From the NCBI GenBank assembly GCA_017303675.1, contig JAFLBX010000001.1:1685970-1749969 (forward strand): DNA of 64,000 bases, given 5' to 3'. Source of the DNA: Ignavibacteria bacterium (GTDB lineage: Bacteria > Bacteroidota > Ignavibacteria > Tepidaquicellales > OLB5). The translations under genes and the position numbers were made by a program. Positions 2,826-9,198 of this stretch are shown here, in pieces; the first letter of the stretch is position 1, and each line of letters starts with the position of its first letter. The notes beneath the pieces were generated by a model that had not been told where the DNA came from, searched no databases, and was given only the letters and a program-made list of their open reading frames with translations.

Positions 2826-3584
2826 ATGATATATACTCTTTTATACTCGCTGATTGCAGGAATTATTACGGGTTTTATTGTATCAGTGCCTCCGTTGGGT
2901 CCTATAGCCTTTGCGCTTATATCAAAAGGATTTAAAGGTGAAGTAAAAGACGGAATGGCTATTGCCGCAGGTTCTGCTTTTATGGATATGGTATATGCAA
3001 TAATTGCTTTCGGAGGGATATCCCTGTTTATTTCTTTTTTACCTGTAAGCTTTGAGCAGGCTATAAACGGTAATATTAATACTATCCAGATCATTTTAAC
3101 TTATGCAGGATGTGCAGTTGTAATTGTTTACGGAATTAAAATTATGCGCACAAAGCTGGATCTTGAAAAATTTGAAGCCAAAGAATCTGAACATTTAAGC
3201 AAAGCAAAAGGCAGGGCAAAAGAATTTGCGGCAAAATCACATGTGCCCCAGGGAGAATCAAATTTCTTCGGACAATTTTTAATGGGGGTGATGCTTTGCA
3301 TTTCATCAATCACACTTCCGGCATCCTGGGTAATTTTGGTTGGCTATGTAAAAAGCTTTGGAGTTCTTGATAGTTCCGTTCTGGGCGGCTTTCTTTTTGC
3401 TGTCGGCGCATTTTCAGGAACTGTTCTGTGGTTCTGGCTTTTGTTAAAACTTATTACAGGCAATAAGCACAGGATAAATAAAAATACGATCAGTAAGCTG
3501 AATTTTTATGCTGGTATAGTTTTAATTGTTTTAGGAATTTTTTTATTCAGCAAAGCTACAGGTACAATATTCGATATTTTCTAG
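2826..3584 (+). CDS. LysE-family membrane exporter
   Basis: A 252-residue inner-membrane protein with about six hydrophobic segments (roughly 5-27, 40-75, 86-107, 152-174, 183-212, 228-248) and a charged cytoplasmic loop near 108-145. The N-terminal pattern G-x-x-T-G-F-I-V-S-V-P-P-L-G-P-I-A followed by a G-(x)n-G-S-A-F-M-D-M-V-Y block is that of the LysE/RhtB amino-acid exporter superfamily. The substrate is not predictable. ATG start. It is the last gene before the dcw promoter; about 220 bases separate it from mraZ. I see no terminator with a T run between them, so some read-through into dcw is possible. Confidence 0.75.
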   Translation: MIYTLLYSLIAGIITGFIVSVPPLGPIAFALISKGFKGEVKDGMAIAAGSAFMDMVYAIIAFGGISLFISFLPVSFEQAINGNINTIQIILTYAGCAVVIVYGIKIMRTKLDLEKFEAKESEHLSKAKGRAKEFAAKSHVPQGESNFFGQFLMGVMLCISSITLPASWVILVGYVKSFGVLDSSVLGGFLFAVGAFSGTVLWFWLLLKLITGNKHRINKNTISKLNFYAGIVLIVLGIFLFSKATGTIFDIF

Positions 3585-3678: not shown

Positions 3679-3708
3679 TTGACATATGGTTTTTTTTTCG
3701 TATTTTTG
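3679..3708 (+). promoter_or_regulatory. Promoter of the dcw cluster (mraZ)
   Basis: TTGACA begins at 3679, then TATTTTTG at 3701-3708. TTG to TA spacing is 19 bases and the second box is an exact TAnnTTTG, so it fits the Bacteroidota consensus. The start of transcription would fall near 3712-3716, inside the first MraZ repeat, giving a leader of about 90 bases before the TTG start of mraZ. Confidence 0.7.
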
Positions 3709-3710
3709 TA

Positions 3711-3745
3711 GTGGAGGAAAATGGAGGAAAGTGGAGGAATTGGGA
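3711..3745 (+). promoter_or_regulatory. MraZ operator: three 10-bp direct repeats
   Basis: GTGGAGGAAA (3711-3720), ATGGAGGAAA (3721-3730) and GTGGAGGAAT (3731-3740) follow one another with an exact 10-base period, then a degenerate TGGGA at 3741-3745. MraZ is known to bind upstream of its own gene to direct repeats of TGGGN spaced by five bases, i.e. the same one-turn period. The position immediately after the -7 box, over the expected transcription start, suggests autorepression of the whole dcw operon. Binding itself is inferred. Confidence 0.75.
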
Positions 3746-3805
3746 TATCGCCTCACTTTCAGCATTAAACCAATCAAAACAACTCAAAAATACAAAAAAA
3801 ATTAA

Positions 3806-4267
3806 TTGTTTCAAGGGCACGCAAATACAACCGTTGATGAAAAAGGCAGATTAATTATTCCTGCCAAGTTCCGCAAGCATATTTTGCCGGATGCCAATGG
3901 TATTTTGAATGCTACTCTTGGCAGAGATAACTGCATATGGTTATTCCCGTCAAATGAATGGATGAAGGTTCTCGAAACCGTACGATCAACCAATCCATAT
4001 ACAGATGATGAAGTACTTATGAGAAGGCAGATGTTCTATTACGCAGATGAATTGACTATTGATTCACAGCACAGAATTTTGATACCGCAGGAAATGAAGG
4101 AAATTACCGGTATCAAAAAAGATGTGCTGCTGATCGGCCAATTAGAACGTATTGAACTTTGGAATCCCGATAATTACAGCAAATACCTGAAGGGAAGCCC
4201 TGATTCATACGAAGGCGTTATGCAGAAAGTTATGACTAAGCTTTATTCAAACAGGAATTCCGAATAG
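3806..4267 (+). CDS. mraZ: Transcriptional regulator MraZ
   Basis: A 153-residue DNA-binding protein of the AbrB-like double-repeat MraZ family, first gene of the dcw cluster and regulator of it. The two repeats carry the signature D-E-K-G-R-L-I-I-P-A-K-F-R (about 11-23) and D-S-Q-H-R-I-L-I-P (about 85-93); the second has H where many homologues have G. The start is TTG: the family's conserved N-terminus M-F-x-G begins exactly there and no ATG lies in frame before residue 52. There is no Shine-Dalgarno, only an A-rich leader. It is the likely ligand of the repeats at 3711-3740. A gap of 16 bases separates it from rsmH. Confidence 0.95.
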   Translation: MFQGHANTTVDEKGRLIIPAKFRKHILPDANGILNATLGRDNCIWLFPSNEWMKVLETVRSTNPYTDDEVLMRRQMFYYADELTIDSQHRILIPQEMKEITGIKKDVLLIGQLERIELWNPDNYSKYLKGSPDSYEGVMQKVMTKLYSNRNSE

Positions 4268-4283: not shown

Positions 4284-5213
4284 TTGAATGAAGAATTCTA
4301 TCATGAGCCGGTACTTTTAAATGAAACAATTATGTATCTGCTGGGTAATACCGGCGGAAACAAAGATGTAAACAGGGTTTATGTTGACTGCACACTTGGA
4401 GGCGGCGGTTACACCAAAAAAATATTAGAAGCTACATCAGAAGAAACAAAGGTTTTAGCTGTAGATAGAGATGTTTATGCTATTGAGCACACTAAAAATG
4501 TTCTTTCAGAATACGGCAGCCGTGTAATTTATTCCCAAAACAACTTTGGCGATATTAAAAAGATAGTTGCAGAAGCCGGATTGGAAAAAATAGACGGTAT
4601 TGTTATGGACCTGGGGCTTTCATCTTACCAGCTGAATTATGAAGACGGTTTCAGTTACCAGAAAGATACAAAGCTGGATATGAGGGCAGACAAAGACCAG
4701 CAGCTTACAGCCGCTGATGTTCTGAACACATATACTGCAGCAGAGCTGGCAGAAATACTGTATAAATACGGTGAAATGCGTTATAACAGGCAAATAGCGG
4801 CAGAAATAGCAGAAAAGAGAAGTGAAAGTAAGTTTGAAACAACTTTCCAGCTTGTTGAACTTTTGAGGCAAAAGGTGCCGCAGAGATTTTTGAACAGTGA
4901 TCTTTCCAGGATGTTCCAGGCAATAAGGATAGAAGTTAATAATGAGCTGGAAAATCTTGAGCGAGTTTTAAATGATTCAGTTGAACTGTTAAATAACGGA
5001 TCCAGAATTGTAGCTGTATCTTATCACTCACTTGAAGACAGGATTGTTAAAAACGCTTTTCGCGGCAATGAAATGCTGAATGTTCTGACCAAAAAACCTG
5101 TTGAAGCCTCAGAAGAAGAAATTGCTTCTAATATCAGGTCAAGAAGCGCCAAGCTAAGAGCTGCAGAAAAAAGTTCAGGATTTAAGAAAAGCAAAAATAA
5201 ATACAGGTTGTAA
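4284..5213 (+). CDS. rsmH: 16S rRNA (cytosine1402-N4)-methyltransferase RsmH
   Basis: RsmH (MraW) methylates N4 of C1402 of 16S rRNA using S-adenosylmethionine. The 309-residue product has the SAM-binding block V-D-C-T-L-G-G-G-G-Y-T (34-44), V-M-D-L-G-L-S-S-Y-Q, R-M-F-Q-A-I-R-I-E-V-N-N-E-L and V-S-Y-H-S-L-E-D-R-I-V-K, which are diagnostic. The start codon is TTG (reads M-N-E-E-F-Y-H-E-P-V-L-L); the H-x-P-V-L-L block normally sits this close to the N-terminus. It follows mraZ as in most dcw clusters and precedes ftsL by 27 bases. Confidence 0.95.
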   Translation: MNEEFYHEPVLLNETIMYLLGNTGGNKDVNRVYVDCTLGGGGYTKKILEATSEETKVLAVDRDVYAIEHTKNVLSEYGSRVIYSQNNFGDIKKIVAEAGLEKIDGIVMDLGLSSYQLNYEDGFSYQKDTKLDMRADKDQQLTAADVLNTYTAAELAEILYKYGEMRYNRQIAAEIAEKRSESKFETTFQLVELLRQKVPQRFLNSDLSRMFQAIRIEVNNELENLERVLNDSVELLNNGSRIVAVSYHSLEDRIVKNAFRGNEMLNVLTKKPVEASEEEIASNIRSRSAKLRAAEKSSGFKKSKNKYRL

Positions 5214-5240: not shown

Positions 5241-5555
5241 ATGAGAAATCCGAAACAAAGAAAAATATCGCTATTTAACCTTATGATAATGCTGTTCATA
5301 ACAGCCGGAATAATTGTCTTCTTTGTAAACAACATTATAGCAGTAAATTCAGTAGTAGTAGATAATAATAATTTAAGGACTGAAATAAACAAAACCGTTA
5401 CTTCCAACAACAATCTTCAGACAGAAATAGAACGGCTAACTAATTTTGATAATATAAAAAGCACTGCAGTAGATAAGCTTGGCCTGCAATATTCAAACAT
5501 TAAACCTAAAAAGATCACAATAGAGAGGTCTCAACTGGAAGATATTACACAGTAG
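5241..5555 (+). CDS. ftsL: FtsL-like cell division protein
   Basis: A 104-residue bitopic protein: a short basic cytoplasmic N-terminus (K-Q-R-K), one transmembrane helix at about 11-36, and a periplasmic coiled coil rich in N, L, E and T at about 43-70. Size, topology and position between rsmH and ftsI identify it as FtsL, which recruits FtsI/FtsW to the division site together with FtsB and FtsQ. Sequence conservation in this family is low, so the name rests mainly on position and architecture. ATG start. Confidence 0.8.
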   Translation: MRNPKQRKISLFNLMIMLFITAGIIVFFVNNIIAVNSVVVDNNNLRTEINKTVTSNNNLQTEIERLTNFDNIKSTAVDKLGLQYSNIKPKKITIERSQLEDITQ

Positions 5556-5604: not shown

Positions 5605-7707
5605 ATGCGGGAAAGAACAAACACAAATATTAAGGCAAACACAGACAGAAGAATAACGATCTTTATGGGTGTGTTTGCCTTATTATTTTTGATAATCCTG
5701 TATAAGCTTTTTAATATCCAGGTGCTTGATGCTTCACGTTACCAGCTTGCGGCAAAAAAACAGTATGAAAGCAAGATCTCGCTTAAATCTTCACGGGGAA
5801 TTATTTTTGACCGCAAAATGAATGCTCTCGTCTCAAATATTATTATGTATTCATTTGCCGCTGATCCTAACATGGTTGATAATAAGGATTCAGTTGCGGC
5901 AGTATTTGCCGGAATATTTAAAAAGGATAAGAACTATTACCTCGATAAGCTGAATACAAAAAATACTTCCTTTGTATGGCTTGAAAGAAGAATTGACCCG
6001 GGATACGAAGCGCAGGTTAAAGATATAAATTTTTCAGGTGTCATAAAGCTTAATGAGCCTAACAGGATATTTAATTATGATAAGCTGACTTCACAGCTGG
6101 TAGGCTATACAAATATAGATAACAACGGTCTGAGCGGTATAGAGCTTGAGCTCAATGAAATGCTCTCCGGAAAAGAAGGTTATGTTGTAATGCAGAAAGA
6201 CGGCCTGGGAAGAAAACGTCCCGCAGTTGAATATCCCCGGCAGGAGCCTGTTGACGGCAATAACGTAATACTAACTATCGATATGAACATTCAGAAGATA
6301 GTGGAAGAAGAGCTTTCAGCAGGTGTTGAGATCAACAATGCCGCAGGCGGTAAAGTTATTGTTATGAATGTCAAGACAGGTGAGCTTCTTGCAATGCATT
6401 CAATAAATCTAGAAGGAGGCAGCCAGGATAAAATAGCAGAAATAACTGATCTGTATGAACCCGGCTCAACTTTCAAAATTATTACCGGCGCAGCTGCGCT
6501 TGAAGAAAGTATACTCAGTAAATATGATGTTATAAACACTTACGGCGGCGAATATATGAACATAAAAGACGCTCATAAATTCGCCAGCTTAACCTTCCAG
6601 CAGGTAATTGAGCAATCAAGCAACGTTGGAACAATACAGGTAGCTAACAGGCTTGGAAAAGAAAAATTTTATAAATATGCCAGGGATTTTGGTTTCGGGA
6701 TCACAACAGGACTTGACCTTCCGGGAGAAATGAAGGGCAGGCTGAAAAAGCCTGTGGAATTTTCACCTGTTACACTGAACTACATGTCAATCGGCTACGA
6801 AGTGCTGGTTACAGCACTGCAGATGGCTAATGCTTATGCATGTGTTGCTAACGGCGGAATGATGATGAAACCTTTTATTATAAAAAAGATCCTGGCTCCG
6901 GACGGTACATTGTTAAAAGAGTATAAGCCTGTTGAAATAAGAAATGTGATCTCGAAGAACACAGCCAAAATGCTTACAGAATTATTTGTCGGCGTTGTTG
7001 AAAGAGGAACTGGCAAGGATGCGTATATTGAAAATATTAAAGTAGCAGGTAAAACCGGTACATCACAGAAAATGGTTGAAGGTAAATATTCTAAAAGTAA
7101 ATACACTTCATCTTTTATCGGCTACTTTCCCGCTGAAAATCCGCAGATAGTAGTTGCGGTAATTATGGACGCTCCGGGTAACGGTGAAATTTACGGCGGA
7201 AAAGTCTCTGCGCCTATCTTCAGAAAAATTTCTGAAAGAATCATCAACTTAACGGGGCTTCATGAATTTTCAGCCCCGGAATATAACGCAGATGTTGTAT
7301 TAACAAGTGATAACAAGGTTGATAAAACCCCGTTAAACCTGGTTAATTTTGATATCAGCGATGCAGTAAAATTCCTGAATGAAAATGAAATGCCTTTCGA
7401 AGTTGAAGGACCTAGAAAGAATGCTATTGTTATATCACAGGAATCAATAACTGACGAAAAAGGGATAAAAAAGATAAAGCTTGTTACTGCAGGGGCAAAT
7501 GATAAATATACAAAAGATAACAGTATTAAGATGCCTGACCTTCACGGAATGAGTGTGAGGAAATGTATAAAGATCATGTCAACATTAGGGGTTGATTATA
7601 AAGTGAACGGTTCAGGCAAAGTTACAGTACAGGTGCCTGAAGCAGGAACGCAGCTTGCGAAGAACCAAACAGTTATTATAAACTGTGATTCACCGGAAAA
7701 ATTCTGA
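5605..7707 (+). CDS. ftsI: Penicillin-binding protein FtsI/PBP2x-type transpeptidase with one PASTA domain
   Basis: Septal peptidoglycan D,D-transpeptidase of 700 residues. A transmembrane helix at about 17-38 is followed by the PBP dimerisation domain (R-G-I-I-F-D-R at 64-70) and the transpeptidase domain with S288-T-F-K291 (active serine), S338-S-N340 and K483-T-G-T486. A C-terminal extension (about 625-695, starting I-K-M-P-D-L-H-G-M) is a PASTA-type domain, which makes it closer to Spo VD/PBP2x than to E. coli FtsI. ATG start. murE begins on the next base after the stop, so the two are probably translationally coupled. It works with FtsW encoded downstream. Confidence 0.95.
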   Translation: MRERTNTNIKANTDRRITIFMGVFALLFLIILYKLFNIQVLDASRYQLAAKKQYESKISLKSSRGIIFDRKMNALVSNIIMYSFAADPNMVDNKDSVAAVFAGIFKKDKNYYLDKLNTKNTSFVWLERRIDPGYEAQVKDINFSGVIKLNEPNRIFNYDKLTSQLVGYTNIDNNGLSGIELELNEMLSGKEGYVVMQKDGLGRKRPAVEYPRQEPVDGNNVILTIDMNIQKIVEEELSAGVEINNAAGGKVIVMNVKTGELLAMHSINLEGGSQDKIAEITDLYEPGSTFKIITGAAALEESILSKYDVINTYGGEYMNIKDAHKFASLTFQQVIEQSSNVGTIQVANRLGKEKFYKYARDFGFGITTGLDLPGEMKGRLKKPVEFSPVTLNYMSIGYEVLVTALQMANAYACVANGGMMMKPFIIKKILAPDGTLLKEYKPVEIRNVISKNTAKMLTELFVGVVERGTGKDAYIENIKVAGKTGTSQKMVEGKYSKSKYTSSFIGYFPAENPQIVVAVIMDAPGNGEIYGGKVSAPIFRKISERIINLTGLHEFSAPEYNADVVLTSDNKVDKTPLNLVNFDISDAVKFLNENEMPFEVEGPRKNAIVISQESITDEKGIKKIKLVTAGANDKYTKDNSIKMPDLHGMSVRKCIKIMSTLGVDYKVNGSGKVTVQVPEAGTQLAKNQTVIINCDSPEKF

Positions 7708-9198
7708 ATGAAGTTCAGCAAAATGATAACACAGACAGAAAATGAAATAATGAATTTAGATGAAAGCTTTGATTTTACTATCAATAAGCTTACAGCGGAT
7801 TCAAAGAATGTTGAGCAGAATGACATTTTCTTTGCTGTGAAAGGATTTGTAACGGACGGAAATAAATTCATACAGGATGCCTTTGAAAAAGGGGCGAAAG
7901 CTGTAATAACAGACGGAGAACCGGATATTATTGACAGCCGCATACATAAAGTGAAGGATGTGCGCAAAGCTATGGCGGTTATGAGCAGCGCATTTTATGG
8001 TAATCCTTCAGGCAAAATGAAAATGATAGGCGTAACCGGAACGAACGGAAAAACTACAGTTACTTCAATAATAAACAGTGTATTGCAGGCAGCAGGAAAA
8101 AAGACAGGGCTTATAGGTACGAACGGAAATTTTATCAATAAAAGATTTATAAGAACAGAACATACTACACCTGATTCAATTGAGCTTAACAGGATCTTAA
8201 GCGAAATGGCTGCTGAGGATGTAGAAACTGTAATCATGGAAGTTTCATCACATGCATTGCAGCTTAAAAGAGTGTTCGGGATAGATTTTGATATAGCTGT
8301 TTTCACTAATCTAACCCCGGAGCACCTGGATTTTCATAAGGATATGGAAAATTACTTTGAATCGAAAAAAATTCTTTTTGATTCATTGCACCGTATAGGG
8401 AAAAAAGGAATAAAGACAGCTGCTATTTATAACTGCAATGATGAGTATGGTTTTAAAATAGTTTCAAATTCAGAAGCTGAGAGAATTGCGTATGGTTTTG
8501 GCTGCGGAACATATACAGCCAGAAATATTGAAATGAACATCAACGGGATGCATTTTGAAGTATTGGTTCCGCGCAACGGAGAAGATATAGAAAAAATAAA
8601 TATATATACGAAGTTAACGGGGCGCTTTAATGTTCATAATATTCTTGCAGCAGTAGCGACATTAAAAACAATGGGTTTAAGTTACAGAGATATTGTAAAA
8701 TATATCGCTGAATTTAATGCAGTTGATGGCAGGTTTAACAGGATCAAACTTAACAACGGCGCTGATGCTATTGTTGATTATTCGCACACACCGGATTCTC
8801 TGCAGAAAGCAATTTCAGCAATAAGGGAAATTCTGGATGAAAGCGGTTCAAAAGGAAAAATTATTACGGTTTTTGGCTGCGGCGGCAACAGGGATAGAAT
8901 CAAACGGCCTGAAATGGGAAAAATTGCAGCCTCGGGCAGCAATGAAGTAATAATTACTTCTGATAATCCGAGAGATGAAGACCCGATGCAGATAATAGAA
9001 GAAATAAAAGCAGGTATATCAAGCGATAATTATTCAGTAGAAAAAGACAGGGAAGCAGCAATAAAAAAAGCAATTGAGATAAGCTCAAAAGGTGATGTGA
9101 TATTAATTGCAGGTAAAGGCCACGAAACATACCAGGAAATAAAAGGGATCAAATATCATTTAAGCGACAGGGAAATAGCGGAAAAATACGGTAAATGA
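7708..9198 (+). CDS. murE: UDP-MurNAc-L-Ala-D-Glu:meso-DAP ligase MurE
   Basis: Cytoplasmic ATP-dependent ligase that adds the third residue of the peptidoglycan stem peptide. 496 residues with the P-loop G-T-N-G-K-T-T (111-117), the carbamylated lysine region Y-F-E-S-K (216-220), and a D-Y-S-H-T-P-D block. The specificity motif D419-N-P-R422 is the one known for meso-diaminopimelate-adding enzymes, so the wall is predicted to be DAP type. ATG immediately abuts the ftsI stop; murF overlaps its stop by 4 bases. Confidence 0.95.
   Translation: MKFSKMITQTENEIMNLDESFDFTINKLTADSKNVEQNDIFFAVKGFVTDGNKFIQDAFEKGAKAVITDGEPDIIDSRIHKVKDVRKAMAVMSSAFYGNPSGKMKMIGVTGTNGKTTVTSIINSVLQAAGKKTGLIGTNGNFINKRFIRTEHTTPDSIELNRILSEMAAEDVETVIMEVSSHALQLKRVFGIDFDIAVFTNLTPEHLDFHKDMENYFESKKILFDSLHRIGKKGIKTAAIYNCNDEYGFKIVSNSEAERIAYGFGCGTYTARNIEMNINGMHFEVLVPRNGEDIEKINIYTKLTGRFNVHNILAAVATLKTMGLSYRDIVKYIAEFNAVDGRFNRIKLNNGADAIVDYSHTPDSLQKAISAIREILDESGSKGKIITVFGCGGNRDRIKRPEMGKIAASGSNEVIITSDNPRDEDPMQIIEEIKAGISSDNYSVEKDREAAIKKAIEISSKGDVILIAGKGHETYQEIKGIKYHLSDREIAEKYGK

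Follow-up and report, generated by a model that had tools for sequence, protein, structure and literature searches.

In the 64-kb stretch of DNA analyzed here (the window), three direct 10-bp repeats lie directly upstream of mraZ, which opens a dcw cluster, and very probably represent the usual landing site of MraZ and thus an ordinary operator. We consider it highly probable that these repeats form an MraZ operator over the predicted start of the cluster, in which MraZ would contact (A)GTGG along a single face of the DNA and, when bound, would limit its own cluster; in this model, MraZ binding and a ring-shaped complex are predicted, as are repression and the position of the start. This assignment would extend to an Ignavibacteria-like lineage an operator characterized chiefly in a few model bacteria, and in the compared regions the common core reads (A)GTGG, repeated every 10 bp, and not TGGGN.

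Promoter, repeats and dcw genes

The locus is organized as follows:

2826-3584: LysE-type gene, upstream neighbor of the promoter and array stretch
3679..3708, + strand: predicted Bacteroidota-type promoter, TTG (-33 region), N19, TATTTTTG (-7 box), by direct reading
3711..3720, + strand: putative MraZ box 1, GTGGAGGAAA, with the predicted transcription start in or just before it
3721..3730, + strand: putative MraZ box 2, ATGGAGGAAA, carrying ATGG, not GTGG
3731..3740, + strand: putative MraZ box 3, GTGGAGGAAT, carrying GTGG
3806..4267, + strand: mraZ, encoding the presumed binder, TTG start (PF02381, TIGR00242)
4284..5213, + strand: rsmH (mraW), second gene of the dcw cluster (PF01795, TIGR00006)
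5241..5555, + strand: FtsL/DivIC-like septum protein, weak matches under the cut-offs
5605..7707, + strand: FtsI-type penicillin-binding protein, the 25 matches listed to PBP/transpeptidase models all under the cut-offs
7708..9198, + strand: murE (NF001126, 557.8 bits, cut-off 373)

Direct reading confirms what the initial annotation had described, a TTG-N19-TATTTTTG promoter followed after 2 bases by three repeats of perfect 10-bp period. TTG occupies positions 3679-3681 and is followed by 19 bases, TATTTTTG at 3701-3708 and then TA; the array (3711-3740) begins 2 bases past the predicted -7 box, and 65 bases separate it from mraZ. A repeat search returns the three copies in direct orientation with spacings of 10 and 10, boxes 1 and 3 harboring GTGG and box 2 ATGG. 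The range first assigned to these elements, 3679-3745, holds for the promoter and the boxes and not for its end, since the third box stops at 3740. The TTGGGA at 3740-3745, which is found after box 3 in 6 of the 14 members of the window family, was rejected as a fourth box, being out of register by one base (TGG spacing of 9).

The promoter conforms to the pattern of the Bacteroidota primary sigma factor (-33 TTTG or TTG, -7 TAnnTTTG), with CTTG, not TTTG, in the -33 region; B. thetaiotaomicron promoters are described with a -7 TAnnTTTG and -33 boxes (PMC7366714, excerpt). An exact search of the genome for the TTG-N19-TATTTTTG string gives 15 matches, of which 2 lie at this locus (one sense, one antisense), against 9 in a backward-read control, so that the string on its own proves little. 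Its conservation says more: a sense match with N18-21 is present upstream of mraZ in 14/14 members of the window family and in 23/28 members of the sister family. The antisense match, on the minus strand at 3814-3785, faces the mraZ promoter across the operator. With N19 or N21, this antisense string recurs in 7/14 members of the window family (0.04 in shuffled leaders), in 1/28 members of the sister family and in 0/13 other members of the class. Against a function as a promoter, A-rich start regions favor CAAAAATA (4 of the 59 ORFs in the window), its TTG derives from a CAA Gln codon of MraZ, the members that carry the string are closely related, and the genome control itself has the nine matches given above.

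The array is exceptional in its genome. Over the 200 bases upstream of mraZ, a content-blind period score is equalled by 0 of 2000 dinucleotide shuffles, and a search of the 3.65-Mb genome for the two-box pattern with at most two mismatches returns this array alone (2 overlapping places; control 0). Three in-register RTGG sequences occur at three places genome-wide (control: 1 match); the other two consist of ATGG only and are taken as chance, and no second three-box array containing GTGG was found in the whole genome.

The mraZ product scores 92.5 bits against PF02381 (cut-off 23) and 103 bits against TIGR00242 (cut-off 98.35) and falls below the cut-offs of the narrower NF0014xx MraZ models. 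The MraZ profile A1 matches the MraZ chains 9qlr, 9qlg, 9sx6 and 1n0e in the PDB, and K13 and R15 are invariant across its 27 sequences. Within the collection searched, the nearest two named relatives of the protein come from records titled Ignavibacteria bacterium (78% identity) and Chlorobiota bacterium (71%). The mraZ start codon is TTG in 13 and GTG in 1 of the 14 window-family members, and rsmH in the window (4284) likewise has an apparent TTG start.

Conservation of the array and its core

A search of 59 genomes of relatives, including the genome of the window itself, found MraZ in 56, whose regions upstream of mraZ we examined. In agreement with the initial annotation, which had pointed to related genomes as the check on its proposal, in-register boxes are present upstream of mraZ in 55 of these 56 genomes (own genome included), the exception being locus L055. 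In another family of the same class, f14, an MraZ match was found in 0 of the 9 genomes in one listing (8 in another). A wider set comprised 131 regions from several phyla, among them, as judged by record titles, Omnitrophota, Zixibacteria, Bacillota and Actinomycetota, after 5 of 136 had been dropped (4 known duplicates and 1 region with fewer than 120 bases). The 4 duplicates were also left out of the tables of the base following TGG and of CCCA in the named set described below; some further overlap between named and unnamed loci is possible. At least two RTGG sequences at 10-bp spacing occur in 128/131 of these regions, compared with 2.55 in shuffles, and three occur in 97/131, compared with 0; at the remaining periods between 7 and 13, two RTGG are seen in 2 to 15 regions and three in none. 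The scan required TGG, which is why every tabulated box has it; the period test is independent of TGG, and when periods are scored blind to content, 10 comes out best in 103/131 regions versus 30/655 shuffles. Furthermore, when 10 of the 14 family leaders are aligned, 19 of 27 invariant columns fall within the first 27 of 103 columns, that is, in the boxes. With position and spacing conserved upstream of mraZ, the annotated MraZ operator over the predicted start is very probably correct.

Some loci count against the operator assignment in that they lack two in-register RTGG boxes; beyond L055, these comprise 17 of 90 loci in a sample of the phylum (30 automatic and 60 fetched, from 147 MraZ-bearing genomes), in which the remaining 73 have at least two RTGG boxes, and 11 of 76 loci in a hold-out set. 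The hold-out set consists of 76 genomes (69, then 7), 65 of them with RTGG arrays, from which the already-seen genome G118 was excluded; an array could not have been seen in one of its genomes, G286, whose contig breaks off within the gene. Of the 17 misses in the phylum sample, 11 belong to family f10 and 5 to f23, where RTGT boxes are seen, and many of the loci without two RTGG boxes have RTGT boxes instead. When the box is relaxed to RTG[GT] and one or more GTGG are required per array, an array so defined is present in 210/213 genomes; this looser definition was chosen after the data for family f10 had been seen. In families f10, f12 and f44 (for example, loci L214, L223, L268, L312 and L316), one GTGG box is followed at 10 bp by GTGT or ATGT.

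MraZ is associated with TGGGN repeats at 10-bp spacing, and the TGGAG of the window had been annotated as a lineage-specific variant of this consensus. This part of the annotation does not survive the comparison. The base following TGG is A in 41 and G in 1 of the 42 boxes of the window family. In the sister family, which belongs to the same order, it is A in 34, G in 29, T in 17 and C in 4 of 84 boxes, with different bases mixed within the array in 23 of 28 cases, and in other phyla it is T in 75, A in 65, G in 47 and C in 6 of 193 boxes, with 54 of 64 arrays mixed. The remaining families of the class (G 25, A 3, T 3 of 31) and a named Bacteroidota set (G 23, T 2, A 1 of 26) mostly have G. 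The near fixation of A in the window family against this preference for G speaks for a shift in MraZ specificity, with matching changes in the protein; however, a single MraZ protein must tolerate all of the bases that occur together within one array, and the 14 family members are closely related, so that the fixation of A may be inheritance. We regard such a shift as very improbable. The common core, as read from these sequences, appears to be (A)GTGG followed by a free base, and the A after TGG is nearly fixed in the window family, nothing more. More unusual than TGGAG is the change in box 2, where the 12 genus members have A (11) or T (1) in place of the first G of GTGG. This is the sole systematic break of the GTGG core, the family's other two genera lack it and have GTGG in box 2, and its presence in 12/12 genus members is a point against the operator assignment.

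The position of the array relative to the promoter bears on how MraZ might act. The first GTGG begins 2 bases after TATTTTTG in 14/14 members of the window family, whereas in the sister family this gap is 2, 3, 5, 7 or 8 bases in 26 of 28 arrays and 15 in one, and in the one other of the 28 no -7 box was found. Such a variable gap fits simple blocking and not a phased contact with the polymerase; judged from these spacings, the array would cover the predicted start at no single helical phase. Most likely, adjacent MraZ subunits would contact (A)GTGG from the same side of the DNA, with one contact for each turn of the helix, and these contacts would lie over the predicted start of transcription for the mraZ-rsmH-ftsL-ftsI-murE cluster. 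Once bound, MraZ would then exclude RNA polymerase and so limit its own cluster. Steric autorepression, as the initial annotation had suggested, is the likely mode of action by analogy.

The repeats might instead function as RNA or as G-rich single-stranded DNA, in the form of a leader hairpin, a Shine-Dalgarno-like GGAGG or a G-quadruplex. Each box does contain GGAGG, box 3 pairs with CCUCACUUUC in the predicted fold, and a G-quadruplex in the S. aureus mraZ promoter has been published (PMC11796246, excerpt). The predicted fold of the leader (3711-3830), however, is no better than that of shuffled sequences (z = 0.16; 114 of 200 at least as good), and structure of the leader RNA thus gives no signal. 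The G4Hunter score of 0.9-1.04, although reached by just 146 of 63,975 25-base windows in the 64-kb window, is also weak against the usual cut-off of 1.2, and the G-quadruplex was rejected as a candidate. A function of this kind, which offers no reason for a strict 10-bp period common to several phyla, seems to us very improbable.

Alternatively, the ATG in box 2, with the GGAGG of box 1 as ribosome site, might open a leader frame encoding a short peptide that tunes mraZ translation. The box 2 ATG is retained in 11 of 12 genus members, with TTG in the remaining one, but the frame runs for anything from 9 to 38 codons in these 12 members with a variable stop position, and GTG occupies this place in the remaining two genera of the family, followed in one of them by a stop after 2 codons. 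Because its end is not conserved we rejected this frame, whose function as a leader we consider very improbable, and a frame from GTG 3711 was discarded likewise for its unconserved length. The frames from box 2 (3721), after the box 1 GGAGG, mostly begin MEESGG or MEGSGG.

Inverted CCCA in related operators

Returning to the operator and its counterparts in relatives, many Bacteroidota MraZ operators may end in an inverted half-site, (T)CCCA, placed exactly 12 bp past the first base of the last direct box and following two or three direct boxes, a proposal to which we give somewhat less than an even chance. In 125 Bacteroidota genomes from 37 families, CCCA is found at offset 12 from the last RTGG box in 25 genomes of 9 families, and at each of the other offsets from 4 to 35 in 0 or 1 genome. 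It reads TCCCA in 22 of the 25 and follows two-box arrays in 13 genomes and three-box arrays in 12. The named Bacteroidota set has CCCA at this offset in 5 of 12 cases and the other phyla in 0 of 64, with 2 at offset 13. With the relaxed box RTG[GT], counted in 213 genomes without the 7 genomes added to the hold-out set, offset-12 CCCA is present in 40/210 Bacteroidota genomes and 13/42 families; the next-best offsets are 21 by genomes (8) and 23 by families (3), and shuffling of the downstream stretches yields on average 0.43, and at most 3, in 61 rounds. Eight of 13 relaxed arrays in family f10 carry it, and it occurs in 0 of 13 members of the window family with a relaxed array. Individual examples include L030, L051, L070, L164-L166, L218 and L221.

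For the hold-out set, the prediction was fixed beforehand. Offset-12 CCCA is found there in 5 genomes of families f12, f17 and f43; f17 and f43 are new, and the expectation of at least two new families was thus borne out. The expectation that offset 12 would stand far above every other failed by genome count, since CCCA occurs at offset 21 in 8 genomes and at offset 11 in 5, all of family f8, and at offset 22 in 2 genomes of 2 families; counted by families, the comparison is 3 versus 2. The hold-out set supports offset-12 CCCA only in part. In family f8, 4 of 11 genomes have CCCA at both offsets 11 and 21, that is, two inverted copies 10 bp apart.

An RNA hairpin as the general cause of offset-12 CCCA was rejected, as L189 and L221 keep CCCA without any TGGG box. 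This persistence, together with the place of CCCA being kept after either two or three boxes, would point to an inverted MraZ half-site and not to an RNA stem. If so, one contact of the MraZ complex would be reversed or closing and would fix the size and the end of the complex, a structural prediction simple enough to be checked with a single protein and a pair of DNA fragments. We found no description of an inverted CCCA half-site in the open-licence literature among the matches listed; the capped form in relatives is possibly new and merits a specialist's look.

Comparison with known mraZ operators

In Mollicutes, the mraZ promoter harbors AAAGTG[T/G] direct repeats (Fisunov 2016, as cited in PMC8475190, excerpt). 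The window likewise has direct repeats in its mraZ promoter, and box 3 with the two bases upstream of it reads AAAGTGG, whereas box 1 corresponds to GTAGTGG and box 2 to AAAATGG; the operators of families f10, f12 and f44, in which GTGG is followed by GTGT or ATGT, also resemble the form reported for Mollicutes. A repressor role is described for M. genitalium MraZ, and ftsZ is up in a mutant table whose first column we take to be the mraZ mutant; on the other hand, overexpression of M. gallisepticum MraZ was accompanied by more FtsZ, which counts against the negative sign of regulation proposed here (PMC8475190, excerpt).

The Burkholderia cenocepacia promoter PmraBc is similar in its 7-nt direct repeats, which are separated by 3-nt spacers and located past a putative -10 and over the start site. 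It differs in having four repeats; B. cenocepacia MraZ shifts a fragment that carries these four repeats overlapping the start site, the gel shift showing binding and the repeats having been found by inspection (PMC7761207, excerpt). Finally, the mraZ upstream region of E. coli K-12 (NC_000913.3, L177) carries three GTGG boxes spaced by 10 bp, directly following a TAAACT hexamer that we read as the -10. The E. coli boxes are GTGGGA, GTGGGG and GTGGGA, the promoter is of another type, and mraZ has an ATG start. Since E. coli shares the layout and the published Burkholderia repeats lie over the start, the array in the window belongs to a known kind.
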